39,229 nucleotides of DNA. It comes from Halococcus saccharolyticus DSM 5350. GTDB taxonomy: Archaea > Halobacteriota > Halobacteria > Halobacteriales > Halococcaceae. This document shows positions 8,083-27,238 of the stretch, piece after piece. The stretch covers positions 202,425 through 241,653 of the forward strand of contig NZ_AOMD01000018.1 in NCBI RefSeq assembly GCF_000336915.1, read 5' to 3'. Position numbers and translations under genes: made by a program. The number at the start of each line of letters is the position of its first letter. The first letter of the stretch is position 1. The notes beneath the pieces are model-generated. The model searched no databases and had not been told where the DNA came from. It saw only the letters and a program-made list of their open reading frames with translations.

Positions 8083-8092
8083 GATATTAAAT
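8083..8092 (-). promoter_or_regulatory. TATA box of the propeller gene
   Basis: The minus strand reads ATTTAATATC here, about 27 bp before the ATG at 8059. This decides the start codon in favour of that ATG over the upstream TTG. Confidence 0.65.
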
Positions 8093-8254
8093 TGTGAACA
8101 GGTTGTAGGAAAACAGAAATTCCAGCAGCGTATCCTGTCACGAGCTACTGCGGACGGACACCGATCGTCCGGCGACAGCGCCGCGACGCGTCACCATCGT
8201 CCAGCTTTCTTCACTAACGACAGCCGTTTACCAATCCCAGCGATGTGTGCAGAC

Positions 8255-8512: not shown

Positions 8513-8548
8513 TAACCCGATTCGGAAGACTGGGGATCGTTCGACCGC

Positions 8549-9241: not shown

Positions 9242-9399
9242 CGTCCCCGATACGGCCGCGTGGTGAAAAAGGCTCCCGGATACCGGTAAACACGCCACCC
9301 GCCCGTGTGCCTCGTCGATCAGCGAAAACCTCCACGACAAATTACCCCACCACTTGCATCCACAAGAATAATAAGGCACAATATCTGTTAAAGGTACGT

Positions 9400-11355: not shown

Positions 11356-11420
11356 CGTAGCGACGCCGATCGCAGATCCCACTTGACGACCTTTCAATCA
11401 ATGTACGAGACACCCTCACT

Positions 11421-12404: not shown

Positions 12405-13594
12405 TGGCTACTGACGAACCATCACCACGATTCGACTCGGTGGATTGGAACGAAGTCGCCGGCGGGAGCGGCCGCGCGTTCTCGACGAACTTCAAGGGCG
12501 TGACCGCCGTCCTCGGCGTGATCTTCGCGCTGATCGCCTACGACGTGTTCGTCGTGCCGGGCGACGTTCCGACGTTCGCAGCGGTCGGCTGGAACTACGA
12601 CGTCACCGGCCTCGACTGGCTGTTCGCCATCTCGATCGTCCTGTTCGGGTTCTACGGCGTGTTGCCGCTGTACCAGAACGCCCGGATGACGCGGTACTAC
12701 TGGAAGGAGTTCCGGAAGAACCGTCCTGCCGTACTCAGCCTCGTCTTCCTGGGTTTCGTCTTCGTCGGCGGGGTTCTCGGTCCGCTGTTCATTTCGGCTC
12801 CGGAGGTCCAACTGTTCACGAAGTATCAGCCACCGGTCGGCTTCGAGATCAGCCGGCAGTACGTCATCAACTGCGCCGGCCCGATCGTCGACGGTGCGTG
12901 TCAGGGAACGTGGCAGTACCCGCTGGGAACCACCCAAAACGGTCGGGACATCTTCGCGATGATCGTCTACGGGATGCAGATCACGATGAAGATCGCGTTC
13001 ATCGCGACGCTGATGGTCCTGACCATCGGCACCGCGGTCGGGACTACCGCCGCGTACATGGGCGGCCTCGTCGACGAGGTGTTGATGCGATACGTCGACA
13101 TCCAGCAGTCGTTCCCGACACTCATCCTCTACTTGCTCATCCTCTACATCTTTGGCGGGAGTTTGACCCTCTTCATCCTCCTGTTCGGGCTGTTCGCGTG
13201 GGAAGGAACGGCGCGGTACGTGCGAAGCAACGCGCTCGCAAAGAGCGAGGAGGAGTACATCAAGGCGGTCCAGCTCAGCGGCGCGAGCACCTATCAGGTC
13301 ATCCGCCGCCACATCATCCCGAACACCGCGAGTAGCTGGATCACGGACCTCACGCTACTGATTCCCGCGTTCTTGCTGTTCGAGGCGCAGCTCGCCTTCC
13401 TCGGACTCGGCGATTCGACGGTCCCCTCGTGGGGACAGCTGATCGCCTCCGGACGCGCCGACCTCTCCTTTGCCCCGTGGATCACGCTGATGCCCGGGTT
13501 CGTGCTGTTCTTCACCATTCTTGCGTTCAACTTCCTCGGTGACGCCGTGCTCGACGCGATCGATCCCGAAACCCAGGCGGAGGCAGAACGATGA
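12404..13594 (+). CDS. ABC transporter permease, DppC/OppC type, with N-terminal extension
   Basis: 396 residues, about 90 longer than usual DppC proteins. The extra N-terminal part holds two hydrophobic segments (about residues 30-50 and 70-90) before the normal first helix, which follows a K-N-R-P-A motif typical of the DppC entry. The core shows Y-P-L-G-T-T-Q-N-G-R-D, a DppC hallmark, and a coupling loop with V-Q-L-S-G-A-S. It overlaps DppB upstream by one base and the ATPase gene downstream by ATGA. The role of the additional helices is unknown. The translated frame is clean and the extension has normal codon use. Confidence 0.92.
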   Translation: MATDEPSPRFDSVDWNEVAGGSGRAFSTNFKGVTAVLGVIFALIAYDVFVVPGDVPTFAAVGWNYDVTGLDWLFAISIVLFGFYGVLPLYQNARMTRYYWKEFRKNRPAVLSLVFLGFVFVGGVLGPLFISAPEVQLFTKYQPPVGFEISRQYVINCAGPIVDGACQGTWQYPLGTTQNGRDIFAMIVYGMQITMKIAFIATLMVLTIGTAVGTTAAYMGGLVDEVLMRYVDIQQSFPTLILYLLILYIFGGSLTLFILLFGLFAWEGTARYVRSNALAKSEEEYIKAVQLSGASTYQVIRRHIIPNTASSWITDLTLLIPAFLLFEAQLAFLGLGDSTVPSWGQLIASGRADLSFAPWITLMPGFVLFFTILAFNFLGDAVLDAIDPETQAEAER

Positions 13595-14637
13595 CAACGG
13601 ACACACCACTCCTCTCGATCGAGAACCTCACCACGACCTTCGACACCGACGCCGGACTCCTCACCGCCGTCGACGGCGTCAGCTTCGACGTCGGCCGCGG
13701 CGAGACGGTCTGTATCGTCGGCGAGAGCGGTTCGGGAAAGACCGTCGCGAGCGAGTCGATCACGCGCCTGATCCCGTCGCCACCCGGTTCGGTCGACGGC
13801 ACGATCCGGTTCGAGGGCCGCGACATCGCGTCGATGAGCGAGTCCGAACTCCGGGAGATCCGGGGCCAGAACATCGCCCACATCTTCCAGAACCCGCAGG
13901 ACGCACTGAACCACTGTTACACCGTTGGCTGGCAGATCACCGAGGCGGTGCAGGTCCACGAGGACGTCGCCAAAGAGGCGGCCCGCGAGCGCGCCGTCGA
14001 TCTGCTCAACCGGGTCGGCGTCGCCAACGCAGCTGCCCGGCTCGACGATTACCCCCACGAGTTCTCGGGCGGCCAGAAACAGCGCGTCATGATCGCGATG
14101 GCGCTCGTCACGAACCCCGACCTCCTCATCGCCGACGAGCCCACGACGGCGCTCGACGTGACCGTGCAGGCCCAGATCCTCCGGTTACTCGACGATCTCC
14201 AGGACGAGTTCGGGATGAGCGTGCTCTTCGTCACCCACGATCTCGGCGTCGTGGCCGAGATCGCGGACCGGGTCGTCGTGATGTATGCGGGGAAAGTGAT
14301 GGAGCGCGGTGACGTCTACGAGATCTTCGAGTCGCCCTCGCATCCGTACACTCGCGCGCTGATGGACTGTCTCCCCGGTGGGGACCGCGCCGCAGGGGGG
14401 ATCGAGGGCACGCTCCCGAATCCGACCGACCCGCCCGATGGCTGTCGGTTCGCACCCCGGTGTGAATACGCCGTCGACGAGTGTACACGGGGCGACCAGC
14501 CCGAGGAGGCAGAGCTTTCGGCGAGCCACAGCGTCTCGTGTGTGTACTACTACGGCGGGCGCGACGCGTCGGTGATCACGGGCGAGGACGATGATGGCGA
14601 TTGGTCGAGTTCGCCGGGAGGGCTGGCGGATGACTGA
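13591..14637 (+). CDS. ABC transporter ATPase, DppD/OppD type
   Basis: 348 residues. Walker A is G-E-S-G-S-G-K-T (44-51), the signature is F-S-G-G-Q-K-Q-R (about 158-165), Walker B is L-L-I-A-D-E-P, and the switch His lies in V-T-H-D-L. The C-terminal oligopeptide-transport domain follows with C-R-F-A-P-R-C. It hydrolyses ATP to drive import through the two permeases, paired with the next gene's product. The start overlaps DppC by ATGA, and the end overlaps the next start by eight bases. Confidence 0.94.
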   Translation: MTTDTPLLSIENLTTTFDTDAGLLTAVDGVSFDVGRGETVCIVGESGSGKTVASESITRLIPSPPGSVDGTIRFEGRDIASMSESELREIRGQNIAHIFQNPQDALNHCYTVGWQITEAVQVHEDVAKEAARERAVDLLNRVGVANAAARLDDYPHEFSGGQKQRVMIAMALVTNPDLLIADEPTTALDVTVQAQILRLLDDLQDEFGMSVLFVTHDLGVVAEIADRVVVMYAGKVMERGDVYEIFESPSHPYTRALMDCLPGGDRAAGGIEGTLPNPTDPPDGCRFAPRCEYAVDECTRGDQPEEAELSASHSVSCVYYYGGRDASVITGEDDDGDWSSSPGGLADD

Positions 14638-15979
14638 CCGTCCGCTGCTCTCGGTCCGCAACCTGAAGAAACACTACCCGATCAAAGAAGGGGTCCTCTC
14701 GCGGCAGGTCGGGGCCGCCCGCGCCGTCGACGGGATCAGCTTCGACATCGCGCAGGGCGAGACCCTCGGATTAGTCGGCGAGTCCGGCTGTGGGAAATCG
14801 ACCGCCGCGTCGTCGATCATCCGACTGGAGGAGCCGACCAGCGGCGAGGTGCTGTTCCACGGTGACGGGTACGACGACACCCGGACCTCCGGGGACGGAA
14901 CCACGACGAACGACGTGACGGAGTTCGACGATAGGCAACTCAAGGCGTTCCGTCGGGACGCCCAGATGATCTTCCAGGACCCTTCTTCGAGTTTCGATCC
15001 GCGACAGACCATCGGAGCGTCGATCGCCGAACTCCTCGAAGTCCACGGGATGACCGACAAACAGCGCCGTCGGGCGATCGTCGAGAACCTGCTCGGAGAC
15101 GTGGGGCTCTCGGCGAGCGACTACGATCGCTACCCTCACGAGTTCTCGGGCGGCCAGAAACAGCGCATCGCGCTCGCCCGGGCGCTGGTGCTCAACCCCG
15201 ACCTCGTGATCGCCGACGAGCCGGTGAGCGCGCTCGACGTCTCCATTCGGGCGGAGATCCTCTCGCTGGTCAACGACCTTCAGGAGAAGTACGGTCTCTC
15301 GGTGCTGTTCATCAGCCACGACCTCTCGGTCATTCGGGACGTCTGTGATCGGGTTGCGGTGATGTATCTCGGCGAAATCGTCGAGATCGCACCGACCGAG
15401 GAGGTCTTCGCGGATCCACAACACCCCTACACCGAGGCGTTGCTCTCGGCGATCCCGACGCCGGACCCCCGGAACACCCGAGAGGACATCGAACTGAAGG
15501 GGAAGGTGCCGAGTCCGACCGATCCGCCCGACGGCTGTCGGTTCCACACGCGGTGTCACCGGGTGATCCAGCCTGACGAGTACGATCTCGAACAGTCACA
15601 CTGGCGGGCGCTGCTGACGTTTCGCGATCGTGTCGTCGAGGGTAGTGTCGACGTCGCGAAGACGCGACGCGCGCTCGACACCGACGGCGACGGCGAGGAT
15701 ACGGTCTCCGACGCGGAGCTCAAACACGAACTCCGGACGGAGTTCGACCTCCCCGAGACGCTCTCGGATCGATCCGCCGAGGACACGCTCGCCGAGGCGC
15801 TCGATCGACTCGTCGCGGACGACCACGATCGGGCGGCCGAGCTGCTCTCGACGTTCACCACGCCCTGTGAGGAATCGAAACCCGAACTCACCGACCGTGG
15901 GACGAATCACCAGGCATCGTGTTTCCTCACCGAGAACGAGGCACCGCTGCAGGACGCCGCAGATCTCCGGGCCGACTGA
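14630..15979 (+). CDS. ABC transporter ATPase, DppF/OppF type, with long C-terminal insertion
   Basis: 449 residues. Walker A is G-E-S-G-C-G-K-S (50-57), then F-S-G-G-Q-K-Q-R, L-V-I-A-D-E-P and I-S-H-D-L. The oligopeptide-transport C-terminal domain begins normally (D-G-C-R-F-H-T-R-C), but about 110 acidic, helical residues separate this from the closing A-S-C-F-L, which usually follows within some 30 residues. The ATG at 14630 is chosen because GGAG (14617-14620) lies nine bases upstream; an in-frame ATG at 14591 lies deeper inside the DppD gene. It is the last gene of the transporter operon. Confidence 0.92.
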   Translation: MTDRPLLSVRNLKKHYPIKEGVLSRQVGAARAVDGISFDIAQGETLGLVGESGCGKSTAASSIIRLEEPTSGEVLFHGDGYDDTRTSGDGTTTNDVTEFDDRQLKAFRRDAQMIFQDPSSSFDPRQTIGASIAELLEVHGMTDKQRRRAIVENLLGDVGLSASDYDRYPHEFSGGQKQRIALARALVLNPDLVIADEPVSALDVSIRAEILSLVNDLQEKYGLSVLFISHDLSVIRDVCDRVAVMYLGEIVEIAPTEEVFADPQHPYTEALLSAIPTPDPRNTREDIELKGKVPSPTDPPDGCRFHTRCHRVIQPDEYDLEQSHWRALLTFRDRVVEGSVDVAKTRRALDTDGDGEDTVSDAELKHELRTEFDLPETLSDRSAEDTLAEALDRLVADDHDRAAELLSTFTTPCEESKPELTDRGTNHQASCFLTENEAPLQDAADLRAD

Positions 15980-16086
15980 CGATCACCGCCGGCGGTTCGT
16001 CGAACTCCTTCGACCGAACACGGGTCCGCCGTCGCTGCTCGAAAACGAGGGAGCGGTACCGATGGAAGTACCGTATAGACGGAGCC

Positions 16087-16656
16087 TCAGCCGTCGCCGT
16101 GGGGATCGGTGATGACGACTTCCTGATCCACGACGTCGACGTTGATCAGGGTCTTCACGTCGTACGGGCTGTCGTCGAGTTCGTTCCCACCGCCTTCCTT
16201 CTTGATGACCGCGACGACGTCGACGATCTCCGCGCCGATCTCCTCTAGTGCGCCGGTGATCCCGCGGAGCGTCCCGCCAGTGGAGAGGACGTCGTCGAGC
16301 AGGAGGACCCGATCGCCCGAATCGACGTCGTTGACGAACATCTCGTTCTCGGAGTAGCCCGTGACCTGCGAGAGCGCGACCTCTCCCTCCAGCCCGTACT
16401 GGCGCTTGCGGACCACCACGAGAGGGATGTCGGTCATCAGTGAGGTCGCCGTCGAGATGTGGATCCCCATCGCGGCGGGTGTCACGATCTTGTCGACGTC
16501 TTCGAGCGCGGCCTTCCGGATGATCTTGATGACGATCTCGCGCAGGAGTTCGGGTTCGAGCATCGGGACACCGTCGCTGATCGGATGGACGAAGTAGTGA
16601 TAGCCTTCCTTCTCGATGATCGGCGCGTCGAGCAGCGAGTCCCGAAGCTGATTCAT
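16087..16656 (-). CDS. hpt: Hypoxanthine/guanine-type purine phosphoribosyltransferase
   Basis: 189 residues, the typical archaeal length. The PRPP-binding loop [13 protein letters not shown] lies at about 118-130, and the hood region near residues 1-40 contains [13 protein letters not shown] as in archaeal Hpt/adenine PRTase-like proteins. It salvages purine bases with PRPP. Haloarchaea carry several such paralogues, some of uncertain activity, so the base specificity is not certain. A GTAAAAC box (16680-16686) is about 27 bp before the ATG at 16656, giving a leaderless mRNA. Confidence 0.87.
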
Positions 16657-16797
16657 GCCGCTGGTACATCGAGTCGTCGGTAAAACTTGACGGTCGTCGG
16701 TCGTGAGCCGCGCTCGCTCGCCGACCCATCGGTCGCATCGACGTCTGGCCGTACCGAGAGATGGATTTTTACCGCCGGCTCGTCAACCAGCGATCAT

Positions 16798-17244
16798 ATG
16801 GCCACGACGCCATACGAGCGGTTCCGGCGGAACGCCACGGGGATCGCCTCGACGGTGGTGACGGGAGTCTGGCTCGCGGCCATGTTCACCGGTCAGAGCT
16901 GGTGGCTCGCAGCGCTGCTGTTCGGCTACATCGTCGTCGTTCCGGTCGTCTCGATGCTGTTCGGCGACGACGAGGACTGGGAGGAACACGCCGACGAGGA
17001 AGAATGGACTGATGGCAAACGGTGGGAGGACAGCTGGACCGGTGGTGGCTGGGTATCCGACGACTCGTCCAACGATCCGTCCTCGACCAACAGCCGCGAC
17101 GCCCTCGAAACCCTCAGAAACCGCTACGCCCGCGGCGAACTCACCGACGAACAGTTCGAGCGGAAAGTCGAACGACTCCTCGACACCGAGTCTCTCGAAA
17201 CCGTCGAGGACCAGTATCGCGAACGCGAGCGGTTGCGAGAGTAG
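16798..17244 (+). CDS. SHOCT-domain membrane protein
   Basis: 148 residues. Two membrane helices fill about residues 14-55, followed by a very acidic, Trp-containing linker, then a C-terminal SHOCT motif (L-R-N-R-Y-A-R-G-E-L-T-D-E-Q-F) near residues 105-125 and a charged helix. SHOCT segments are short oligomerisation helices found in many prokaryotic membrane proteins. The ATG at 16798 has a TTTTTA box (16766-16771) about 28 bp upstream. An ORF extending further upstream reads through that promoter and was rejected. Function unknown. Confidence 0.82.
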   Translation: MATTPYERFRRNATGIASTVVTGVWLAAMFTGQSWWLAALLFGYIVVVPVVSMLFGDDEDWEEHADEEEWTDGKRWEDSWTGGGWVSDDSSNDPSSTNSRDALETLRNRYARGELTDEQFERKVERLLDTESLETVEDQYRERERLRE

Positions 17245-17371
17245 TGCAAGCGATAGGTTCGATCCTCTTTGATTCGCCAGCTGTCCGTTATTGCCACGGA
17301 AAAATGGGAACTGCACCGCCCCATTCAGTTTACCCCAGATAAGGGAGACGAGAGCGGCTTAGTTATGGGTT

Positions 17372-17704
17372 TTAGCTGGTACTGCCGCCACTCACATCGG
17401 TACTGAAGAGCGTTGCTGAGTTACCTTCCCCATCATCATAAACGACGCTCACAGATTCGGTTGGACTCAGACCTGTCGCGATCTGAGTACCAGCCGTGAT
17501 TTCACCGCCCACAGCGTCCTGTCGAGTGCCGTCCACGACAGTATAGATATTTGCGCCGTCCAGCGTGTCTCCTCCACTCATCGTTATCGTACCACTATCA
17601 TAGGTGAAGGTGGCTTGTGGTGCGGTTTGTTGATTACCGAAAACGCCAGTGGCGAACGCGCCGACCACGGCGGCGAGGATGACCACGACCGCGATCATCA
17701 AGAC
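17372..17704 (-). pseudogene. 3' part of host type IV pilin gene, cut by the element
   Basis: This frame encodes V-L-M-I-A-V-V-V-I-L-A-A-V-V-G-A-F, the conserved helix of haloarchaeal type IV pilins, and a diverged C-terminal domain ending G-G-S-T-S. It lacks the start, the basic leader and the R-A-V-S-P-V-I-G-V processing region: the frame upstream meets TAG within the element. Those missing parts lie 9 kb away at 26731-26793 on the same strand. Joined through the 11-bp core the frame is exact and gives a pilin of about 131 residues. A TTG-ATG pair just inside could start a short peptide, but it would lack the leader and could not be a normal pilin. Confidence 0.9.
17649..17692 (-). repeat. 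44-bp direct repeat in the two pilin genes, copy 1
   Basis: These 44 bases, coding for the pilin helix, are identical to 26568-26611 in the element's own pilin, in the same orientation. The two pilins then differ strongly in their C-terminal halves. The identity could support homologous exchange. Confidence 0.9.
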
Positions 17705-17715
17705 GACGCCAATAA
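17705..17715. repeat. attL core
   Basis: Left copy of GACGCCAATAA. On the minus strand it reads TTATTGGCGTC and encodes the V-I-G-V part of the pilin processing region. The bases directly outside differ from those of the right copy, so the exact repeat is 11 bp. Confidence 0.85.
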
Positions 17716-17736
17716 AGCCTGAAAAGTAAAGTAACG

Positions 17737-17744
17737 ACTATAAC
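17737..17744 (+). promoter_or_regulatory. TATA box of the regulator-integrase operon
   Basis: ACTATAAC is centred about 26 bp before the ATG at 17765, fitting a leaderless transcript. It lies only 22 bp inside attL, so in the excised circle it would face the pilin gene across the att site. Confidence 0.6.
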
Positions 17745-17764
17745 CTTGGCGACTTTGTATCTGA

Positions 17765-18331
17765 ATGGGTGACCGGAAAATGGCTTCCGACACAGGTCAA
17801 GTGAACATATCGCTTGACACGGACGTGAAAGAAGAATGGCAACAGTACGTCGACGAACATCCCGATTATCGCTACGTGTCCCACCTTGTCCGGGCGGCAG
17901 TCGGGAAAGAAATCCGAGGACAGTACGGTGGTGGCGGGGGGGCTTCGGGCGACGTGGCCGAGCGACTATCCGACATCGAATCCCTGCTTTTGGACATCCA
18001 GAACGGCGTCGACGACGTTCACGATCGGATGGATGCCGTGGAATCCCAGTTGGAAGGCCCATCGACCGATGTCACCGATCTCGCAGGGGATGTGTTCGAA
18101 TGCCTGCCGTCAGAGGGAATGGCTGGTCGGACCACCCAAGATGTACTGTCCGGCGAAGAGCACGCCGTTGACGAAGGCACAGTTCTGACCGGACGAATCA
18201 GCGATATCGCTGATCACTTGGACACCGATCCGATCCGTGTGCGACAGGCACTACAACAATTGAAAGAAGACACGCCGCTTGTCGATTCACAAAACATCGG
18301 TGGCGATGAAAGCTGGTTCCGAGTGAATTGA
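17765..18331 (+). CDS. RHH-like/coiled-coil/winged-helix putative regulator
   Basis: 188 residues. The first 50 (V-N-I-S-L-D-T-D-V-K-E-E-W, then Y-V-S-H-L-V-R-A-A-V) resemble a ribbon-helix-helix DNA-binding unit. A Gly-rich hinge and a coiled coil (about 65-95) follow, and residues 100-188 look like a winged helix (I-S-D-I-A-D-H-L-D-T-D-P-I-R-V-R-Q-A-L). The integrase starts two bases after its stop, so the pair is one operon. By position it may control integration or excision, like small DNA-binding proteins next to other archaeal integrases; this is inference. The ATG at 17765 fits the TATA spacing, with an alternative ATG at 17780. Confidence 0.75.
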   Translation: MGDRKMASDTGQVNISLDTDVKEEWQQYVDEHPDYRYVSHLVRAAVGKEIRGQYGGGGGASGDVAERLSDIESLLLDIQNGVDDVHDRMDAVESQLEGPSTDVTDLAGDVFECLPSEGMAGRTTQDVLSGEEHAVDEGTVLTGRISDIADHLDTDPIRVRQALQQLKEDTPLVDSQNIGGDESWFRVN

Positions 18332-18332
18332 T

Positions 18333-19319
18333 ATGGCAGCCACCACCACCCGGACCCCCATCGGGAACGAGCACATCGATGAGTTTCTTGACGACGTTCA
18401 CGGGCTGAAATCCGATGGGACCTACCAGACCCGGCATTCCGATCTGAAGAACTTCTACGGTTGGATGCAGGACAACGGCCACGACGACGTTACGGAGCTG
18501 TCGGCACGCGACATCCGGAAGTATCTGATTTGGAACGACCGGCAGGGATACGCACCTGCCACCATCCAGTCGCGCTATATGTCGGTCACGATGCTATTCA
18601 AAGAACTATCTGGTATCTACGACGTGATCGACGAAGACGACAACCCGATGGAAAATCTGGATTACATGTCGGTTTCGGGGCTGATGGAAGGCACAAAAAA
18701 GACCGACGACGACCCGGACAACGTTGTCTTCGTCACCCCCGAGGAGGTCAACATGATGTGCGAGGATGCACCAAATCCCCAACATCGAAACCAGCTAATC
18801 CTGCGCATTCTGTTTCAGACCGGTGTTCGTGTTCAAGAATGTCGAGACATGAAGCTTGAACACGTCGACCGGGACGAGCGGTCCATCCAGATTCACAGCC
18901 AGAAGACCGACGACTGGCGCACCGTGTGGTGGCAGCCCGGCAAGGTAGACACCCTGATGGCTATGTGGGTCGACCATCTTCGGGACACCCATTCCCCGGC
19001 TGCTGAGTCAGACCACCTGTTTCTAACAAACCGGTCCGAGAAATTGGGGAAGTCCCGAATCCAAGAGATGGTGCGCGACACCGCGAAGCGAGCAGGGATC
19101 CAGTCCGTACTATACACCGACCCGGCCGGAAAAGACCACCATCGGATTACGCCCCATGCGTTCCGACACGGCCACTGTGTGAACGCGGTGCGCAACGACA
19201 TTGATATTGCCTTCGTTCGGGAGCACGTCGGGCATGAGTCCATCGAGACAACCAAACGCTATCTTCAGTTCAAAGAGGAGGAAATCCGGGACGCCTACCA
19301 CCGGTTCGACACCGCGTAG
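18333..19319 (+). CDS. Tyrosine recombinase / integrase
   Basis: 328 residues. An N-terminal SAM-like core-binding domain covers about 10-120, the catalytic domain 130-328. All expected catalytic residues are present: Arg166 in G-V-R-V-Q-E, Lys191 in S-Q-K-T, His275-x-x-Arg278 in P-H-A-F-R-H, His301 in H-V-G-H and the nucleophile Tyr310 in T-K-R-Y-L. It should cut and rejoin DNA at the GACGCCAATAA core. The gene follows the regulator by one base of spacing and lies 0.6 kb from attL, as usual for integrases of archaeal elements. It appears intact. Confidence 0.95.
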   Translation: MAATTTRTPIGNEHIDEFLDDVHGLKSDGTYQTRHSDLKNFYGWMQDNGHDDVTELSARDIRKYLIWNDRQGYAPATIQSRYMSVTMLFKELSGIYDVIDEDDNPMENLDYMSVSGLMEGTKKTDDDPDNVVFVTPEEVNMMCEDAPNPQHRNQLILRILFQTGVRVQECRDMKLEHVDRDERSIQIHSQKTDDWRTVWWQPGKVDTLMAMWVDHLRDTHSPAAESDHLFLTNRSEKLGKSRIQEMVRDTAKRAGIQSVLYTDPAGKDHHRITPHAFRHGHCVNAVRNDIDIAFVREHVGHESIETTKRYLQFKEEEIRDAYHRFDTA

Positions 19320-19744
19320 CCCCACCTTCCGGCTATTTTCAGCCCAATATCGGTCGCTGTGACCGTCGCACGAACCGACGAAACGCCTGCTATTCGTCAC
19401 CGTCAGAACGCCGTAGAACGCACTGTGCGCGTCGTGGCGGCATAGGGGTGCGACAGTCAACACAACCTATGTCGTTATCTGTCGATAATCGCAAGACGGT
19501 AGTACGGTCAGTATTAAAATTGTCAAAGTGCCGGAACATTCAAGCGTATCGTCGCCTTACCTGACGGTAGAAAGTTAGGAACTGATGTTCGGATGGGTGA
19601 GATCATCCGAACGGCCACGATTCGAATCCCATCGTGGTGACGATGACAGGGTGGAGACCTGTGCCATTTGCTTCGGTTGCGGGGCACTTAGGCCTATTGT
19701 CCTCGTCAACACGGTGGTGAGACGACAAGCTGCATATCGAGATC
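19320..19744. other. Non-coding region between integrase and helicase-like gene
   Basis: No convincing gene in this 425-bp gap. It contains a copy of CGTCAGAACGCCGT (19401-19414) that recurs at 26130-26143, an A+T-rich spot around 19510, and a cluster of inverted repeats from 19587 to about 19690. An 82-residue frame across 19585-19833 has a C-A-I-C-F-G-C-G cluster but overlaps the hairpins and the next gene, so I did not call it. The region could hold a replication origin, a promoter or a structured RNA. Confidence 0.4.
19587..19637. promoter_or_regulatory. Two adjacent hairpins
   Basis: GTTCGGATG (19587-19595) pairs perfectly with CATCCGAAC (19604-19612) across an 8-base loop. Two bases later CCACGA (19615-19620) pairs with TCGTGG (19632-19637) across an 11-base loop containing TTCGAATC. 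The second loop resembles a tRNA T loop, but the stem and the absence of other arms rule out a tRNA gene. No T-tract follows, so a simple terminator is unlikely. Confidence 0.55.
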
Positions 19745-21583
19745 TTGGCTACTACCCCCACTACGGACGAATCGACGAATCGAACGACGAACGAACGACC
19801 ACCGGAAGTCCTAACCCAGCAGTGGGTCCGTGACCGGACGAGAGCGGTCATCACCGACGCGCTTCGGGCCAACGGAGAGACCTTAGTCGAAGCCCCACCT
19901 GCCGCCGGCAAGACGACTGGACTGTTCGCTGCGGTTGAGGACACAGGTGAACCGATCACCTACCTAACCCAACGGGAGGACCTGTACGACCAAGCCGGCA
20001 AGCTGGCGCGCGACCACGGACTGAAACCGAAGGTCCTGCCGAGCCCACACCGGACGTGTCCGACATTTGAAGGCGACCACGGCGACGAGTGGCGCAATCG
20101 TGTGACGACTGTCTACGGTCCTAACGTCGGCGGTGCTGCCATCCACAAAGTGATGGACTTGCCATGCAGCGATGAGGGCACTTGCCCCTACCAGCTGGCG
20201 TGGGACTTCGAGCCGGCGAACTACGACGTTCTGGTGGGTCATTACGTCCATGCTAACGTTCCGTCCGCCGTCGAGAATCGGACGATCGTCATCGATGAGT
20301 TCGCCGAGGAAGCCGCCGTAACCACCTTCCACGATCCCGAACCCGTGGTTTCGGCATTCGTATCACGTCGGCGCGGGCTTCCGTTCGACGACTGGACTGA
20401 TTTCGTCGAACATCGTCACGAACGAAGACCCGAAGCCGTCCGCTGGTTCGTTCGCAACTACCGCGACAAGAACCCCGACTCATGGGATGTCATCGATGAC
20501 GATGGTGATGTGCATGGACTGGCCGGCGAGCTTGTGCTGGGACTGTTGTTCGCCGAGGATTTGGGTAACGGCTTCCGAACAACGGAGAAGACGATCCCCA
20601 AACCGACACCGGATGGGTGGCAACGAATGGCGCTGCGAGACACGTCCGTCCGGCGACGAATGTCCCCAAAAGTCGCATGGAACACCGAGAAGAACGCCGT
20701 CCATCTGCTATCCGTCCCCAACTTCGACGACGCGAACGGAGTGGCCGCGCTTGATGGCACACCCACAAAACGCATGTGGGATACGGCCTTTGGCGTTTCC
20801 TTCGACCACGAGCGAGTCGTTCCGCCGTCGAGGATGAACGACTATCTAACCGACGCGCTGGATATCAAAGTCCATCAGTACGGTGCGCACGATCCGGATA
20901 AGGCCGGCACGCGACCGTATTCGTCGGGCAATCACCTGTATGCCGAGACTGACGAGAAGCTACTTCATGGGATAGGGATGCACTTCGATGCCGATCCCGA
21001 TGTCATCACGACGAGAGCAGCAATTCGTGAGTACGACGAAGACGACCGAGTTCTTCATCACGCCGACGAATATCGAAACTTCGCGTCGGTGAAGTCATCG
21101 AACGCTTTTCGTGAATCGACTGTCGGAGCTGTCCTTGGTTCCCCACACCCCGGTGACGAGACATTCAAGCGGTGGGGCGCTTTCATGGGATCCGCAATCG
21201 AGGGGTCCGGCAAGGGAGTAGATCGTTCCTACCGAGCCGTCGGCGACGAGATATACCACCACTACGTCCACAATCAGGTGCTACAGTCGATTCTGCGGTT
21301 TGGACGCGACGGACAGGAGGCGCATGTCCTTGTCACGTCGATGTGTACGCCGTCGTGGGTCGAACCTGAGCCGTTGAAGATGATGACGTTCAGCGGAAGT
21401 AGCAGTAGGGCTGTCGTTGATTGCCTTCGTGACAGCGACGGAATGTCGCAGAGTGAAATCGTTGACGAGACCGGACTATCCCAGCAGGCAGCATCGAAGG
21501 CGTTGAACGGACTGGATGAGAATGGGTTCGTCGCTGTTGAAGACAAACCCGGCCCATACAGCAGTCAATACGTGTGGAATTAG
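19745..21583 (+). CDS. Helicase-like NTPase with C-terminal winged helix
   Basis: 612 residues. Walker A is A-P-P-A-A-G-K-T-T (50-58), a DE-box I-V-I-D-E-F lies near 181-186, and Q-S-I-L-R-F-G-R near 514-521 resembles SF2 motif VI. The last 65 residues form a MarR-like winged helix (S-Q-S-E-I-V-D-E-T-G-L-S-Q-Q-A-A). It is the largest protein of the element and the best candidate for its replication or copy control. The start is uncertain: the frame opens at 19721 and its only ordinary start is TTG at 19745, without a clear TATA box or SD. Cellular partners are unknown. Confidence 0.8.
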   Translation: MATTPTTDESTNRTTNERPPEVLTQQWVRDRTRAVITDALRANGETLVEAPPAAGKTTGLFAAVEDTGEPITYLTQREDLYDQAGKLARDHGLKPKVLPSPHRTCPTFEGDHGDEWRNRVTTVYGPNVGGAAIHKVMDLPCSDEGTCPYQLAWDFEPANYDVLVGHYVHANVPSAVENRTIVIDEFAEEAAVTTFHDPEPVVSAFVSRRRGLPFDDWTDFVEHRHERRPEAVRWFVRNYRDKNPDSWDVIDDDGDVHGLAGELVLGLLFAEDLGNGFRTTEKTIPKPTPDGWQRMALRDTSVRRRMSPKVAWNTEKNAVHLLSVPNFDDANGVAALDGTPTKRMWDTAFGVSFDHERVVPPSRMNDYLTDALDIKVHQYGAHDPDKAGTRPYSSGNHLYAETDEKLLHGIGMHFDADPDVITTRAAIREYDEDDRVLHHADEYRNFASVKSSNAFRESTVGAVLGSPHPGDETFKRWGAFMGSAIEGSGKGVDRSYRAVGDEIYHHYVHNQVLQSILRFGRDGQEAHVLVTSMCTPSWVEPEPLKMMTFSGSSSRAVVDCLRDSDGMSQSEIVDETGLSQQAASKALNGLDENGFVAVEDKPGPYSSQYVWN

Positions 21584-21600
21584 GAGTCCATGTGAATCAT

Positions 21601-21656
21601 TGTGAAGCTACCACGATCCCATACTAAGCTTAGTATGGGACTATTGTACCTTCACA
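21601..21656. promoter_or_regulatory. Nested dyad site 1
   Basis: A 24-bp perfect palindrome (21617-21640, half-site TCCCATACTAAG, HindIII-type AAGCTT centre) is surrounded by a second pair of arms, TGTGAAG (21601-21607) and CTTCACA (21650-21656). Both pairs share one centre (21628.5), with spacers of exactly nine bases. With no loop it is a poor terminator and a good binding site for a dimeric or tetrameric protein. Confidence 0.85.
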
Positions 21657-21720
21657 GTCGTTATCATGGTAGTCGTTAAGGACGACGGCAATCTACGTTG
21701 AACTTGGGAGGGTGTAGCAT

Positions 21721-21766
21721 GAAGTTCGCAATCCCATACTAAGCTTATTATGGAGTCGTGAACTTC
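21721..21766. promoter_or_regulatory. Nested dyad site 2
   Basis: A second copy of the half-site TCCCATACTAAG (21732-21743) with a less perfect right half, centred at 21743.5. Outer arms GAAGTTC (21721-21727) and GAACTTC (21760-21766) are placed symmetrically about the same centre. The centres of sites 1 and 2 are 115 bp apart, close to eleven turns of B-DNA. Confidence 0.8.
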
Positions 21767-21833
21767 GTGCCAAGGACTGTCGTGGATGGCACTGACCCGA
21801 ACAACTAACGGTCCCATCGTTCACCTGTCCGCT

Positions 21834-22088
21834 ATGGCGCAGAAACAGACGACCGACATGGATGACTGGGAAGAAATCGGCGAACAGGCACAGAAGGCAC
21901 GCGAGGAGCTGTTCAAACTTCACGAGTTGTTGGGTGGTGGCGACGCCGTGCCAAAGACCGTATGGCGGGACGCTTTCGAAAAGGCCGATGGTGGTCTGTC
22001 TGCGCTGAAATCCGACTTGGAGGATCGTATGGTCGAGGAGCATCCCGATGAGTTCGACACCGACGTGTTCTACGGCGGCGATTACTGA
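21834..22088 (+). CDS. Small acidic helical protein of the element
   Basis: 84 residues from the ATG at 21834; an in-frame ATG at 21786 would add 16 residues that lack the acidic bias. The protein is predicted mainly helical (E-E-I-G-E-Q-A-Q-K-A-R-E-E-L-F-K-L) with an acidic C-terminus ending F-Y-G-G-D-Y. It starts about 70 bp after the second dyad site and could be controlled by it. I do not recognise the family. Confidence 0.6.
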   Translation: MAQKQTTDMDDWEEIGEQAQKAREELFKLHELLGGGDAVPKTVWRDAFEKADGGLSALKSDLEDRMVEEHPDEFDTDVFYGGDY

Positions 22089-22377
22089 CTGAACCAGTCG
22101 CTTCGGTTCGAGCAAGAGACGTTCATTCGGCAATTCGGCCAGTGATTGCGCCGTTCAACTACACTTTTCGCGTGGTATATCGGCTGTCGATGTTCTGTTG
22201 ACAACACAACGGTGTCGATACGGACCAACGCCAGTGGGTGTTTGTGGTCGTTCTGAGCGGCATGGTATTGTCGCAGGAAGGGAAGGATAGGTTGCTAATC
22301 GGGCGTGACACACAGACACGATATGTGGGTGAGTGACAAACACTAAGTGCCGCCCATCGGTGATTTCGTTCAAGCAG

Positions 22378-23286
22378 ATGGCAACGACGAGAGAATCCGG
22401 GCAGGTCTTGTCGCAGCTACAGTCGATGGACAGCTACGACTTTGAGCATCTGGTGGCCGATCTATGGGAACAGCAGGGATGGGATACTGAGGTGTCACAG
22501 GCGAGTTCAGACGCCGGTATCGATGTGATTGCGACGAAGGAAAACCCGTATCCACAGAAGAAGCTGATACAAGCGAAACGCTACGGTCCCAATACGACCG
22601 TTGGCAGCCCTGACATGCAGCAATATTATTCGTTGAAAGAGCAGGAAGACAACGTCGATTCCGTCGTCATTGTAACATCCAACGAGTTCACCTACGACGC
22701 CGAGGAACGCGCCCAAGAACTGAACGTTAAAACCGTCAACGGCGACGAAATGGTCGAACTGATTGACCGACTCAATAGCTACGATCTGCTGGACCAATAC
22801 GATACATCCGATGTGATATCTGGTACTGCATCCCCCACTGTCAACGAGGCTCAATCCGAAGATAAATCAACAGATGAGGGGTTCTGGGCCGGCATTTCCA
22901 ATGATTCGTACTATCGTTTCATCCAACTTGGAACAGCAGTATGGACTTTTGGTTTCATACTGGGAATAGCAGGATATTCTGGTAGTGGCGGGACGCTGGA
23001 CGGTATATTCGGGCTTGTATCCATCATCACGTGGGTCGTGATGCCACCCGGCCTATACTACGAGGCGCAACGAGTAGCGGGAGAAACTGACTGGACACCA
23101 TACAAGACGCTTTATGCCGCTACTGCCGTCATACCGTTTCTAAACGCCCTTATTGGCGGAATCTACTTGTATCGTCGAAAGAATGCCTATGAACGGGCAC
23201 GGCCCCAAGGAATCGAGGAATCCGGTAGCTTCAGTGTCGAATCGGCAGACGATTCGCGCGAATCCATCACGGAACGATCCGAGTAG
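22378..23286 (+). CDS. Mrr-type restriction endonuclease-like protein with membrane helices
   Basis: 302 residues. The N-terminal 110 residues match the Mrr-cat PD-(D/E)XK fold: Y-D-F-E-H-L-V-A-D-L-W, then D-A-G-I-D-V (Asp49) and I-Q-A-K-R-Y (Gln65, Lys67). Three membrane helices follow between about 180 and 270, with a charged tail. Mrr-like nucleases are known in modification-dependent restriction and other defence. A membrane-tethered form would cut DNA near the envelope, which is inference. The ATG at 22378 is chosen over an in-frame GTG at 22333 because an ACTAAG element lies about 27 bp upstream. Codons are less G+C-biased than in the chromosome. Confidence 0.8.
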   Translation: MATTRESGQVLSQLQSMDSYDFEHLVADLWEQQGWDTEVSQASSDAGIDVIATKENPYPQKKLIQAKRYGPNTTVGSPDMQQYYSLKEQEDNVDSVVIVTSNEFTYDAEERAQELNVKTVNGDEMVELIDRLNSYDLLDQYDTSDVISGTASPTVNEAQSEDKSTDEGFWAGISNDSYYRFIQLGTAVWTFGFILGIAGYSGSGGTLDGIFGLVSIITWVVMPPGLYYEAQRVAGETDWTPYKTLYAATAVIPFLNALIGGIYLYRRKNAYERARPQGIEESGSFSVESADDSRESITERSE

Positions 23287-23569
23287 GAAGGGGCGCAGCC
23301 AGTTTATTATTGATGGTTGCCGTTTGTGTTTTGCAGCACAGTTCGGTTGTAACGTCCACCCGCGGCTTTTCACCGCCAATTGAATACTGTGAAGAAATCG
23401 TATCGTCGGACATCACCGTATTGGTCGATACAGACCATCTGTGTTATAGAATGTGTCGATACGGGACGTTAGGGGGCCTCAACGACGGTGTTTTGTGGCT
23501 TCGTGACATAGGTCTGGCAATGACAATTTCGCATCCGCAGCGACTGGGTGATTCACTGATTATCAAATC

Positions 23570-23863
23570 ATGACTGACGAAGACGAAGCCACGATTGCGG
23601 AGCTTGAACAGCGCCATGAACGATTACAGCGGAAAGCGAAGCGAAAACCGAGCTGGCAGCGTGCCGCCGACAACGCCGCCGAGGAACTAATCGAAGCGAA
23701 GTGCGACCGAGTCGAGGAATTGGAAGTACAGTCTGACGACATGAGTCCGGCCGGCGCGGTGTTGGCACGTAGTCTTGGTGCGACCGAAGCCGGTCAGACG
23801 GCCGAACTACGCGACGAGATTGACCGACATCGAAGCGACATCGCGGAACTGGAGGAACAATGA
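23570..23863 (+). CDS. Small coiled-coil protein of the element
   Basis: 97 residues, almost wholly helical and charged. Two coiled segments (A-E-L-E-Q-R-H-E-R-L-Q-R and A-E-L-R-D-E-I-D-R-H) flank a middle region with M-S-P-A-G-A-V-L-A-R-S-L-G. The stop overlaps the start of the next gene by ATGA, so the two are co-translated. No family was recognised. It could be a scaffold or adaptor for the next product; nothing in the sequence proves this. Confidence 0.65.
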   Translation: MTDEDEATIAELEQRHERLQRKAKRKPSWQRAADNAAEELIEAKCDRVEELEVQSDDMSPAGAVLARSLGATEAGQTAELRDEIDRHRSDIAELEEQ

Positions 23864-24243
23864 GTTCTAAAGCTGACGGAGTGAACAGGGAGATTCGTTC
23901 CGCCGTCCGTGATTCAGATGCCGGACTACGAATGAACGAGTTGAATCTGGCCATCACCGTATCCGACGGAGATGATGTTTTCGCCGAAGTGTCGATAGGC
24001 CGTGACCGCCAGCGCCAGAAGATCGTCCATGTCATGACGGCTGCCGTCCGTGGTGTGCTACAGGCTACCGAGAGTGCATCCCATGACAGCGACGGCGACT
24101 TCACATCGCCACCGACGGACGGCGAGGCCACAGTCGTCGTTGTGGCCGACCGTATCTACCGCGTATCCGTCGAGAACGACTGGCAGGACCTGCCCGACCC
24201 AAAGCTATCGACAAGGGTTACATCGACCATCAGCGCCGTCTGA
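23860..24243 (+). CDS. Unknown soluble protein of the element
   Basis: 127 residues with alternating strands (L-N-L-A-I-T-V-S-D-G-D-D, A-T-V-V-V-V-A-D-R-I-Y-R-V-S-V) and one helix, V-M-T-A-A-V-R-G-V-L. It is coupled to the preceding coiled-coil gene by ATGA. No membrane segment, signal or catalytic motif is visible and I do not recognise it. The next gene runs toward it on the minus strand. Confidence 0.65.
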   Translation: MSSKADGVNREIRSAVRDSDAGLRMNELNLAITVSDGDDVFAEVSIGRDRQRQKIVHVMTAAVRGVLQATESASHDSDGDFTSPPTDGEATVVVVADRIYRVSVENDWQDLPDPKLSTRVTSTISAV

Positions 24244-24332
24244 CGGATACAACTTCTTTCAGGGCAGCGACAGGGAGCGCGCGGGCTATCTAAAGCCGTG
24301 TGTGGACAGCCACGGTGGTCGGGCTGCTACGA

Positions 24333-25310
24333 CTAATCCCGTACTATGTTCCCCGGTTCGGGTTCGCCGCTATCTTGACTGGTTGTATCGTCGGTGTCTG
24401 TCGAACCGTCATCTGAGGAGTCGCTATCTTCTGTTGATTCTGTAGATTCGGTTCCTTCTCGCTGAGATGGGGGCGATTCGTTTAGTAGTTCTTCGGTATT
24501 GGAAACGCGCTTCCACAGGAACCCCAGTGTCCACAGGAATCCGACTATCCATACTACGGACACCGCTACAGGTTCGATCCATGCGAACGGGGATGAATAG
24601 GTCCACCCGAGTTCATGCAGAAGACGGACGAAAAGAGGAAACATGACTGACAGAGCAATTGGAACGGCAGCCGATTTGATACCATCTTGAAGCTGCTGGG
24701 GGTCTAACGATTTGTCTTCTTCTACCAACAGTTCCCATTCGTCTTCTAATTCGTCAATATCACCTTGAATTTCTGAAACAACCGAGTCATGGCGGTCATA
24801 TTTTTCGCGGTCGTATATGTCCCAGAGTGCTTCGACGATATATTTGAAGTCATTATCAAGAAATACCGCTGAATCCATTGTTGGGCCTCTTGATCGCAAC
24901 TTTTCAAGGATTTCATCCCAACGTTCGCGGATTGTTTCGGCATGGTGCTGAATTAGGTCATCCGCAGTCAGTCCTCGATGCGTGATTAGCCCCTGCATCG
25001 CATCGTCAACTGATATTTCAGTTGCAGGTGGGTCCCAATCACTACCAACATCGTATTTTATGAACGAGTCAACATCGTCTTCTGCGCTTTCACGCCTCCA
25101 ACGAACCTCGGTTTGCTCAACTTGTTCAGTGCGAAAATCCTTACGGGCAAGTAGGACCTCTTGTTCGGCTTCAACAGAGTTGGCTCGTTGCCGTATGCGC
25201 GACCGTTGAGTTTTGAGATCGGAATACCGCGTAACAAGGTAAGCAGTAAGGATACCAACGAAAATGCTTGCTGTTGAAGCAAGAACGCCATAGAATTGGA
25301 GCAGCGCCAT
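24333..25310 (-). CDS. Membrane protein with long cytoplasmic helical domain
   Basis: 325 residues. One membrane helix (about residues 7-25, F-Y-G-V-L-A-S-T-A-S-I-F-V-G-I-L) is followed by roughly 180 charged, mostly helical residues, then two more helices (about 212-275) and a Ser/Thr/Asp/Glu-rich tail. The layout recalls membrane sensors or anchoring proteins, but I recognise no family. The ATG at 25310 begins right at the first helix. The gene is convergent with the 23860 gene. Its A+T-richer codons agree with foreign origin. Confidence 0.75.
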   Translation of the reverse strand: MALLQFYGVLASTASIFVGILTAYLVTRYSDLKTQRSRIRQRANSVEAEQEVLLARKDFRTEQVEQTEVRWRRESAEDDVDSFIKYDVGSDWDPPATEISVDDAMQGLITHRGLTADDLIQHHAETIRERWDEILEKLRSRGPTMDSAVFLDNDFKYIVEALWDIYDREKYDRHDSVVSEIQGDIDELEDEWELLVEEDKSLDPQQLQDGIKSAAVPIALSVMFPLFVRLLHELGWTYSSPFAWIEPVAVSVVWIVGFLWTLGFLWKRVSNTEELLNESPPSQREGTESTESTEDSDSSDDGSTDTDDTTSQDSGEPEPGNIVRD

Positions 25311-25477
25311 ATTGGTGAATTACATCTTCGGTGGAATGAAACGCTGATATCATTTTTGGTGTCCGGTGGACAGTCACAGGGCGAGGGCAAACACTGCGTA
25401 TTCTCCTACCCGCAGGATTCGAGCGGTGGTTCCGGATCGACAGGGCTGATACTGCCTCTGAGGTGGTTGTCGGGGCG

Positions 25478-25801
25478 TTATGGAACGGTTGTTACCGCCG
25501 ACCAGCCAAAGACGAATGCAAAAACAACGACCCAAGCCATGACCAGCCAGACACGATGAAGGATGCTTCGATAATCTCGATACTTGCCAGTTAGCAGACT
25601 CAGTCCGAACGAACCGATCAATACCGCCCCTCCAATGAGGCCGACGAACAGTAGAACTGTCCCACCACGTCTGCGAACAAGAGGAATAAACGAAAAGTAC
25701 GCTGATACCAATTTTGGGATGACCCACAGTGCGAACCCCAAGCAAACAATCCCGACCACGCCCCTAAGTACGGAATTGGGTTTCACTGCTTGAGGCGACA
25801 A
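25478..25801 (-). CDS. Small membrane protein
   Basis: 107 residues with three hydrophobic helices: about residues 13-37, 45-69 and 82-104. A basic patch (L-V-R-R-R-G-G) lies between the first two. The only upstream start is TTG at 25801; a GTG at codon 6 is an alternative. It lies 167 bp upstream of the larger membrane protein on the same strand, so the two may be one transcript. Function unknown. Confidence 0.65.
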   Translation of the reverse strand: MSPQAVKPNSVLRGVVGIVCLGFALWVIPKLVSAYFSFIPLVRRRGGTVLLFVGLIGGAVLIGSFGLSLLTGKYRDYRSILHRVWLVMAWVVVFAFVFGWSAVTTVP

Positions 25802-26269
25802 ACCGATGGTAGTTAGTTACTGTCATTCCGCTGAATCGCACCAAATGGGCTGGCAAATGGTGTACGCATTTTCGTGGGTCTCTTTTCCAGTAGTACCGCT
25901 ATATGTCAGATTAAAGGGGCACTGGCGCACGCCGGAACCAGCCTGTCGCGCTGCGCATCCCTGTTCCGCGCCATCGAACCCACCCTTTGCGTGTCGAGAG
26001 ACGGGTTCGCCGGGCGTCGTGTGTCGCGTGAACAGCGGATACGTGCTTCAATCCCTGTCGTCATCAGAACGAGTACAGTCGCCGTGTGTGCGCCGTCAGA
26101 ACGACGCAAAAGGAGTTCGTTTCACCGGGCGTCAGAACGCCGTCAGTGGCGCGATGTTGGCGTGTGTGCCATATTTACTGGCCCAACGCTTATCCATCGT
26201 CGCCGAAAAATGGGTGTTGTATCGGACCGCTCAGTCCACCCAAGAGGGTGAACTCGGGAAGCCGGATTA
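25802..26269. other. Non-coding region before the element pilin
   Basis: 468 bp without a credible gene. Two overlapping open frames on the plus strand have unusual Cys-, Ser- and Arg-rich translations and no acidic bias. The region holds CGTCAGAACGACG (26094-26106) and CGTCAGAACGCCGT (26130-26143), related to the copy at 19401-19414, and two copies of CCGGGCGTC. It lies downstream of the pilin and may end its transcript. Confidence 0.45.
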
Positions 26270-26683
26270 TTAACTGCCGCTACTGCCACCGGCATCGAAT
26301 GATCCGAGCACCGCGGAGTTTCCGTTGCCGTCGTCCCATATCACTTGAACGGTGGTATCACTACTTACCGATACGTCCGAAGTGCTGCCAGCAGTGACCT
26401 CTCCACTTGTATCAGTTCCACCCCAATCCGATCTGCCAGAGTCGCCTACTTTGGTGTATAGATTGCCTGAATCTATCGCATCACCACTTTCCATGACCAC
26501 TTGGGTATTCGCTGCGTCGTAACTGAAACTGGCCTGTGGTGCGCTGTTCTGATTCCCGAAAACGCCGGTGGCGAACGCGCCGACCACGGCGGCGAGGATG
26601 ACCACGACCGCAATCATCAACACAACCCCGATAACGGGGCTAACTGCGCGGTCATCACCGGACAGCCTATCGAACAGGTTCAT
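26270..26683 (-). CDS. Complete type IV pilin carried by the element
   Basis: 137 residues. A short charged leader ends in D-D-R-A-V-S-P-V-I-G-V, the class III signal and processing region seen in haloarchaeal pilins, followed by V-L-M-I-A-V-V-V-I-L-A-A-V-V-G-A-F. Cleavage by a PilD/PibD-like peptidase before the hydrophobic helix is expected. The C-terminal domain is Ser-, Gly- and Asp-rich and differs strongly from the disrupted host pilin, while the helix is nearly identical. The ATG at 26683 overlaps the stop of the host-element fusion ORF by ATGA, so after integration it is probably expressed from the host pilin promoter. It should form or join adhesive pili. Confidence 0.92.
   Translation of the reverse strand: MNLFDRLSGDDRAVSPVIGVVLMIAVVVILAAVVGAFATGVFGNQNSAPQASFSYDAANTQVVMESGDAIDSGNLYTKVGDSGRSDWGGTDTSGEVTAGSTSDVSVSSDTTVQVIWDDGNGNSAVLGSFDAGGSSGS
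26568..26611 (-). repeat. 44-bp direct repeat in the two pilin genes, copy 2
   Basis: Identical to 17649-17692 in the disrupted host pilin, same orientation, 8,919 bp apart. Codes for the conserved pilin helix. Confidence 0.9.
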
Positions 26684-26793
26684 CGTTTGCGTCCCGTATT
26701 GTAGTCACTGGTAGTCCGAACGTTTTTCATGACGCCAATAACTGGGCTGACTGCACGTGAATCCGATCGAAGTTCGTTGATTCGTTCTCTCAT
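26680..26793 (-). pseudogene. 5' part of host pilin fused in frame to an element leader peptide
   Basis: 37 codons. The first 21 are host sequence: a charged leader and R-A-V-S-P-V-I-G-V. At the att core the frame passes without a shift into element DNA and continues as MKNVRTTSDYNTGRKR, then TGA. There is no hydrophobic helix, so the peptide cannot be a pilin. Its stop overlaps the ATG of the element pilin (ATGA, 26680-26683). The host start at 26793 gives the 13-residue leader typical of this family; a GTG at 26865 would add 24 residues. It probably acts only as a translated leader that delivers ribosomes to the element pilin. Confidence 0.9.
26731..26741. repeat. attR core
   Basis: Right copy of GACGCCAATAA. 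Element DNA lies at lower coordinates (ending TTTTTCAT) and host pilin DNA at higher coordinates (CTGGGCTGACTG). Confidence 0.85.
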
Positions 26794-26913
26794 TTTGGTT
26801 TCGCTCACCCACCAGCCCCGGACTCGGCGGCCTTCGACACCACCCAACCGTTCGACTATCGCCACCGCCGCAGTTCGTTTTACGCTGGTGTGTCACTACG
26901 AGTTGCGCAACAT

Positions 26914-26929
26914 CCTATATAATATTTTT
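26914..26929 (-). promoter_or_regulatory. Promoter of the host pilin
   Basis: A strong A+T block, minus strand AAAAATATTATATAGG, in otherwise G+C-rich DNA. It would start RNA near 26893, giving a leader of about 100 bases before the pilin ATG at 26793. A GTG at 26894-26896 could open a leaderless upstream frame in another register. No other strong TATA box is visible for the pilin, so this host promoter now drives the fusion ORF and the element pilin. Confidence 0.65.
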
Positions 26930-27046
26930 CTTTGATTCTCCCTACCACATGTCACCAGTTCAATAGAGTTTTGTCACGAGGTTCCCGCAACTTCAGTGAC
27001 TCGTCTTACTGACCGTCATGTGGCGAACGATGGAGGGAGGACGGAT

Positions 27047-27238
27047 TTGAGAACGATTAAGTCCCGGCGTTGGCTGATTCGAGGTGTGTCTCTCGCGACG
27101 CTCGCCGCGCTCCCCGCCGCCCCGACGGTCGGCCAACTCGGTATCGGCAGCGTCGCCCAAGCCGGCTCCGAGCGCATGGGCGTCACGTTTCACGGCGACG
27201 CATCGTGGCCGGACGACCCGACCGAGTGCGAACGGTGA
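27047..27238 (+). CDS. Small secreted protein with Arg-Arg signal peptide
   Basis: 63 residues from TTG at 27047. GGAGG (27036-27040) lies six bases upstream, which decides this start over a GTG at 26996 that has no such site. The N-terminus K-S-R-R-W-L-I-R-G-V-S-L is a twin-arginine-like signal followed by A-T-L-A-A-L-P-A-A-P and a likely cleavage site. The mature part is about 35 residues (F-H-G-D-A-S-W-P-D-D-P). Third codon positions are nearly all G or C, which supports coding. No family recognised. Confidence 0.5.
   Translation: MRTIKSRRWLIRGVSLATLAALPAAPTVGQLGIGSVAQAGSERMGVTFHGDASWPDDPTECER

Follow-up and report, generated by a model that had tools for sequence, protein, structure and literature searches.

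An integrative element that splits a haloarchaeal type IV pilin gene carries a complete pilin that may replace the resident one

Results and Discussion

We identified an integrative element within a type IV pilin gene of Halococcus saccharolyticus DSM 5350, in a 39,229-nucleotide stretch of contig NZ_AOMD01000018.1 (hereafter the window). The element itself encodes a complete pilin next to the promoter-bearing part of the gene that it splits. The insertion, the single-gene origin of the two fragments, and the cargo allele with its position and homology are shown. When the position, orientation, intactness and allelic origin of the cargo are taken together, the best reading is that the element replaces the resident pilin with an imported one. 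We favor this reading by a modest margin, as cargo expression, pilus assembly and present-day excision are inferred.

Insertion site and empty site

An 11-bp sequence, GACGCCAATAA, occurs exactly twice in the window, both times on the plus strand, at positions 17705-17715 (left core, attL side) and 26731-26741 (right core, attR side). Read in the minus-strand coding sense, the left core (TTATTGGCGTC) corresponds to the VIGV codons of a pilin. The 3' part of the host pilin gene (17372-17704, minus strand; codons 22-131 and the stop codon, whose final base is position 17372) adjoins the left core, and the 5' part (MRERINELRSDSRAVSPVIGV; 26731-26793, minus strand, core included) contains the right core. 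Joining minus-strand positions 26793-26731 to 17704-17372 gave a single 131-aa frame, MRERINELRSDSRAVSPVIGVVLMIAVVVILAAVVGAFATGVFGNQQ..., with a stop codon at its end; the right core closes codon 21 of the pilin N-terminus, and the left core continues into the hydrophobic domain and the remainder of the protein, VLMIAVVVILAAVVGAFATGVFGNQQ.... The GC content falls from ~0.65 outside to 0.50-0.58 between the two core sites. By itself, the 11-bp repeat is weak evidence, as two or more matches to it (one mismatch allowed) were present in 9 of 100 shuffles.

The decisive evidence is an empty site in a member of the same genus (G005), which lacks the element and has a single continuous pilin, 95% identical to the joined protein over residues 1-129. 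Its N-terminus is the same as that of the host 5' part, and its 3' part shows 92% amino acid identity to the orphaned fragment. Window positions 8727-17713 aligned with positions 2-8987 of the G005 locus (L068) at 91.7% identity, through the left core, and window positions 26731-27173, beginning at the right core, aligned with L068 positions 8979-9416 at 80.8% identity. The two alignments share 9 bp, at the core, and are collinear on both sides. With both flanks collinear and one continuous pilin in G005, the two fragments derive from a single gene, and the 9,026 bp between them (17716-26741, the interior plus one core) are an insertion. At the orthologous locus, congeners have only one pilin. 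The orphaned 3' fragment has neither a start codon nor the host promoter. The insertion parts codons 1-21, with the promoter, from codons 22-131, so that, judging from the sequence, the host pilin cannot be made.

An earlier note, based on the sequence alone, had claimed an element inserted inside a pilin gene, short cores and an unbroken joined frame, all of which held. It had proposed a search for an uninterrupted allele in relatives, with its absence, or the assignment of the fragments to different genes, as the refuting outcome; the G005 allele shows that this outcome was not met. Its coordinates for the 5' fragment (26742-26793) become 26731-26793 when the core is counted. The earlier note overlooked the complete pilin inside the element, which shifts the likely consequence of the insertion from pilin loss to pilin exchange.

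A separate difference from both G005 and another congener (G001) was observed at window positions 27153-27173, where a ~5.9-kb Mrp-type Na+/H+ antiporter operon beside the pilin is absent. There, across a short stretch of similar sequence, the beginning of an mrpA-like gene runs into the end of the operon's final gene, and the only close match to the MrpA-like protein in the source genome is a 64-aa remnant. We considered whether this 5.9-kb gap upstream of the pilin represents lost pilus machinery and rejected the idea; the gap is the deleted antiporter operon.

A complete pilin within the element

The cargo pilin is located at the right end of the element (26270-26683, minus strand; Pilin_N PF07790, 5.1e-19; TIGR02537), in the same direction as the split gene. 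Its best match outside its own genome was the G001 pilin at the orthologous locus (63-64% identity, 63% over the full alignment; dN 0.31, dS 1.41, dN/dS ~0.22), and it was 59% identical to the host pilin. From this homology, the cargo pilin is likely a diverged allele of the element's own target gene. The sequence following it (26209-26269, minus strand) shares homology with the 3' flank that chromosomal pilins have at this locus; shuffled sequences scored as high in 0 of 1000 cases against G005, 1 of 1000 against G001 and 27 of 1000 against the host. An allele together with a flank of the target locus would fit an element that had, itself or through an ancestor, resided at this locus in another lineage. 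We also considered the cargo pilin as an old chromosomal tandem copy, an origin that was rejected because congeners have one pilin there.

A 44-bp exact direct repeat was found in the orphaned host pilin (17649-17692) and the cargo pilin (26568-26611). The two genes are otherwise saturated at synonymous sites (dS ~2.2), and the G005 orthologue differs within this tract, which makes gene conversion its likely source. The repeat could also offer a second route of deletion, via homologous recombination.

The TATA-like box of the host pilin, AAAATATTATATAGG (26914-26928, minus strand), lies ~120 nt upstream of the ATG. It is conserved in G005, in part also in G001, and has remained with the 5' fragment, on the cargo side. 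Translation of the region between the right core and the cargo pilin indicated an element-supplied leader (26684-26730, minus strand) which adds MKNVRTTSDYNTGRKR to the host 5' frame. This frame stops after 16 element codons, and its TGA overlaps the ATG of the cargo pilin (ATGA), which is in another frame and has its own start. Of 14 gene pairs tested elsewhere, among them pairs from Haloferax volcanii, 13 were strictly coupled by stop/start overlaps of this kind (PMC6728339). The overlap alone proves little, since a 4- or 1-base overlap arose in 15% of random leaders. Two T2SS/T4P-type ATPases are encoded elsewhere in the genome; thus, the source organism could possess a pilus motor.

Integrase and partner gene

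A 328-aa tyrosine integrase (18333-19319, plus strand) with SAM-like and catalytic domains (PF02899; PF00589, 4.4e-27) is encoded beside the left core, its nearest solved relative being the archaeal XerA (5hxy). Residues R166, K191, H275-x-x-R278, H301 and Y310 are invariant across its family and complete the R-K-HxxR-H-Y set, so the earlier claim of a complete integrase at this position also held. Directly upstream is a gene for a 188-aa partner protein (17765-18331, plus strand) that had no Pfam match and whose N-terminus we take, from reading of the sequence, to be of ribbon-helix-helix (RHH) type. A homologue of the partner gene immediately precedes the integrase in 16 relatives, and the same order was found at each of 40 further loci, six of which are relatives from the 16, taken again with longer flanks. 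A TATA-like sequence, CTATAACC (17738-17745, plus strand), adjoins the core ~27 bp upstream of the partner gene start, and relatives have similar boxes at the same place. The core in the window has an offset of -60 relative to the partner gene, in agreement with the position expected for the family, ~40-100 bp upstream and inside a conserved coding motif.

In our sample of the class (391 haloarchaeal genomes), the integrase family was present in 87 genomes (E<=1e-50). The pilin integrase formed a lone branch in a maximum-likelihood tree, with no more than 43% identity to any other integrase. Dyad symmetry of the inverted attP arms was weak for the pilin element (p=0.24), clear only in L066 (p=0.0075) and weak elsewhere.

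Targets of related integrases

Examination of related loci suggested that integrases with the RHH-like partner probably use, as a family, conserved codons of many different proteins as att sites, although the individual core assignments are candidates. Because the cores are short, they escaped an initial search for long repeats near these integrases, and many were resolved once the search was confined to the sequence preceding the partner gene. A GC-rich gene often breaks off abruptly just upstream of the partner gene in relatives. This edge was paired with a distant short repeat, the outer flanks were joined to give long open frames, and Pfam domains were sought on the joined frames. At least 15 relatives had candidate cores of 11-19 bp in other protein-coding genes (volactin, PilB3, TspO, TctA, aRF1 and others). 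Examples include a 13-bp core in a volactin gene (L057), an 11-bp core in a PilB3-type ATPase gene (L064), a 13-bp core in a TspO gene (L066), and a 12-bp core in L062 whose joined frame we take, from reading of the sequence, to be an Eco57I-type restriction-modification gene. Among further loci, the targets also included another T2SSE ATPase, TctA transporters, ABC-2 and ABC exporters, and HhH-GPD glycosylases, together with the aRF1 release factor at its N-terminus and the replication factor C (RFC) large subunit at its start codon; here, the RFC target and the HhH-GPD target in L193 were likewise taken to be so from reading of the sequence. No core was resolved in several relatives (L052, L054-L056, L058-L061, L063, L065, L067 and others), and a proposed target for L177 (a UDG or IleRS flank) was not accepted.

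Repeats of at least 12 bp involving the interval from 100 to 40 bp before the partner gene were found at 21 of 39 loci, compared to 3-15 loci for nine other 60-bp intervals, and the excess was clearer for repeats of at least 13 bp (14 of 39 loci versus 1-6 in control intervals). In the tree, integrases with the same target were mostly found together (the RFC pair, the aRF1 pair, the ABC-2 pair and two of three TctA integrases), and the PilB3 and other T2SSE integrases fell in one clade. The two HhH-GPD and two ABC exporter integrases did not cluster clearly, and unrelated genes were targeted by integrases within one clade. The earlier note had regarded the choice of target as unusual, which held only in part, as a protein-coding target appears typical of this integrase family and not peculiar to the pilin element. 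None of the 15 relatives tested carried a copy of its own target inside the element; the pilin element alone does. The cargo pilin may therefore be a one-off capture.

Two further observations concern the kinds of genes involved. Family members are located at the aRF1 N-terminus (L202 and L212) and at the RFC large subunit start codon (L209 and L211). Both genes are presumably essential, and a new promoter or N-terminus must come from the element at these sites. In addition, L064 and L185 split genes for type II/IV secretion ATPases, one of which is PilB3-type, and pilus-type genes thus recur as targets of the family.

Other genes and distribution of the element

A 612-aa NTPase-like protein (19745-21583, plus strand) has a GETLVEAPPAAGKTTG P-loop and a C-terminal winged helix (MarR_2), and its main part has no Pfam name. 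A role in replication or maintenance is likely, but inferred. Relatives of this protein were detected in 79 of the 391 haloarchaeal genomes, frequently as part of open frames of 950-1280 aa, and the source genome has another copy (42%) elsewhere (G000:C30:32452-34188). Another gene (22333-23286, plus strand) encodes an Mrr-type restriction endonuclease domain (PF04471, 5.4e-26) followed by C-terminal membrane segments; it matched the PADLOC PDC-S02, ZorD and type IV REase models and resembles candidate defense proteins. A 325-aa membrane protein (24333-25310, minus strand) has a 30% homologue adjoining the related integrase in L056.

No virion structural genes were recognized among the element proteins with PHROGs or Pfam, so the element does not qualify as a provirus of the head-tailed, pleolipovirus or spindle virus kind. 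The sole tRNA gene in the window is at 598-676 and the target is a pilin; the element therefore does not use a tRNA attB of the SNJ2 type. Exact-peptide scans of genome and viral contigs showed no close relatives of the integrase, the cargo pilin or the partner protein. Phage and plasmid collections contained only distant integrases and no cargo pilin, and the plasmid collection contained no element DNA. The element was found in one genome only.

Pilin replacement and alternative explanations

In the pilin replacement model, the integrase with its RHH-like partner would have inserted the element into a haloarchaeal type IV pilin gene by recombination between the 11-bp core and the conserved SPVIGV codons. 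Integration would part the promoter and codons 1-21 from codons 22-131 and turn the resident pilin off. A transcript from the host TATA box would then carry host codons 1-21, the 16 element codons and TGA with the overlapping cargo ATG, so that the resident promoter would drive the imported pilin, through read-through and termination-reinitiation. On excision, the resident pilin would be regained. Several points count against this model: the frequency of comparable overlaps in random leaders (~15%), the absence of such cargo in the 15 relatives, the single genome and the weak attP dyad.

The strongest alternative, which remains possible, is plain disruption, with the pilin merely a landing site and the cargo pilin a passenger acquired by faulty excision in a former host and now silent or irrelevant. 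It is supported by the 15 tested relatives, which disrupt their targets without a replacement copy, by the unrelated genes targeted within one integrase clade and by the piece of chromosomal 3' flank in the cargo, as would be expected from accidental capture. However, the cargo frame is intact, its dN/dS of ~0.22 versus the G001 allele indicates purifying selection, and it follows the host promoter and 5' cistron immediately and in the correct orientation.

A second alternative is a reversible switch, comparable to the nifD element of heterocystous cyanobacteria or to active lysogeny, in which the host pilin would be regained by regulated excision in certain cells or under certain conditions and the two pilins would be alternative phases. 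Both parts of the host pilin are uneroded (dN/dS ~0.11 versus G005 over the whole gene), the joined frame is perfect and the integrase residues are complete. On the other hand, dN/dS mostly reflects evolution prior to the insertion, evidence for excision is lacking, and no dedicated excision factor was identified, although the partner gene could be one. We consider such a switch unlikely. Finally, tandem duplication of a pilin followed by insertions or rearrangement, without any integrative element, might explain the presence of two pilin genes, and of 44 identical bp, at the two ends but is all but excluded by the empty site, the single pilin of congeners, the exact cores, the integrase beside a core, the GC step and the equivalent anatomy of related elements.

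Beyond pilin replacement as such, a bolder reading is that the element is a mobile pilin-exchange cassette, dedicated to a single pilin locus within a haloarchaeal genus, that would install an alternative allele behind the resident promoter and give the resident allele back on excision. We consider this reading possible, but less likely than not. If it is true, the cassette would be a case of site-specific recombination swapping a surface antigen or virus receptor between alleles, and would belong to a wider integrase family that reads conserved protein motifs as att sites. Type IV pilins mediate archaeal adhesion, and pili are receptors for some archaeal viruses; for example, pilin deletion in Sulfolobus islandicus resulted in resistance to SIRV (PMC7911016). 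An element that destroys one pilin allele and supplies another would, if confirmed, provide a one-step route to a change of the cell surface.

Comparison with known systems

Protein-coding att sites are already known in archaea. In a review of archaeal tyrosine recombinases, the protein-coding targets named are HMG-CoA reductase, a cation efflux gene and an AsnC regulator, and the word pilin does not occur (PMC8371274). The earlier note knew of no described element with a pilin target; consistent with this, we found no description of an element inserted in an archaeal or bacterial pilin gene in the open-access literature searched (titles and abstracts). BJ1 virus (HMG-CoA reductase), Msmi-Pro1 and NitGar-E6 likewise combine a tyrosine integrase with an att site inside a protein-coding gene, but their targets are not pilins, and the review section bearing on them mentions no allelic replacement gene (PMC8371274). 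SNJ2-type integrases are also haloarchaeal and share the Phage_int_SAM and Phage_integrase architecture; however, SNJ2 uses a tRNA gene (PMC8371274), whereas the family of the pilin integrase appears to target protein-coding genes and is accompanied by a conserved partner gene of its own.

By analogy, the nearest functional counterparts are the cyanobacterial nif interruption elements and switch prophages such as Sa3int. The nifD/hupL/fdxN elements are likewise recombinase elements between short direct repeats in a functional gene, their excision restores the target, and their recombinase groups go with target positions (PMC4874684); here, too, integrase clades mostly track the target. Developmental excision is established for these elements, whereas only a restored frame is shown here, and the pilin element carries an allele of the interrupted gene. 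Staphylococcus aureus Sa3int in hlb (PMC6597384) and the Listeria comK prophage also inactivate a chromosomal gene and add cargo genes; in contrast, the pilin element has no recognized virion genes, and its cargo is a homologue of the disrupted gene. Insertions of the e14/phage 21 type in Escherichia coli icd supply replacement sequence for the interrupted gene; they replace its 3' end in the same reading frame and yield a near-identical protein. The pilin element instead brings an entire second gene, which has a start codon of its own and differs in sequence, and so lacks the same-frame replacement seen in icd.

Intragenic att sites of archaea are treated in the review as scattered cases (PMC8371274), whereas here they look like the rule for one family, whose integrases offer naturally diversified specificities that could be studied and put to use in genetic tools. 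Against this background, what is new is the pilin target combined with an allelic replacement cassette.
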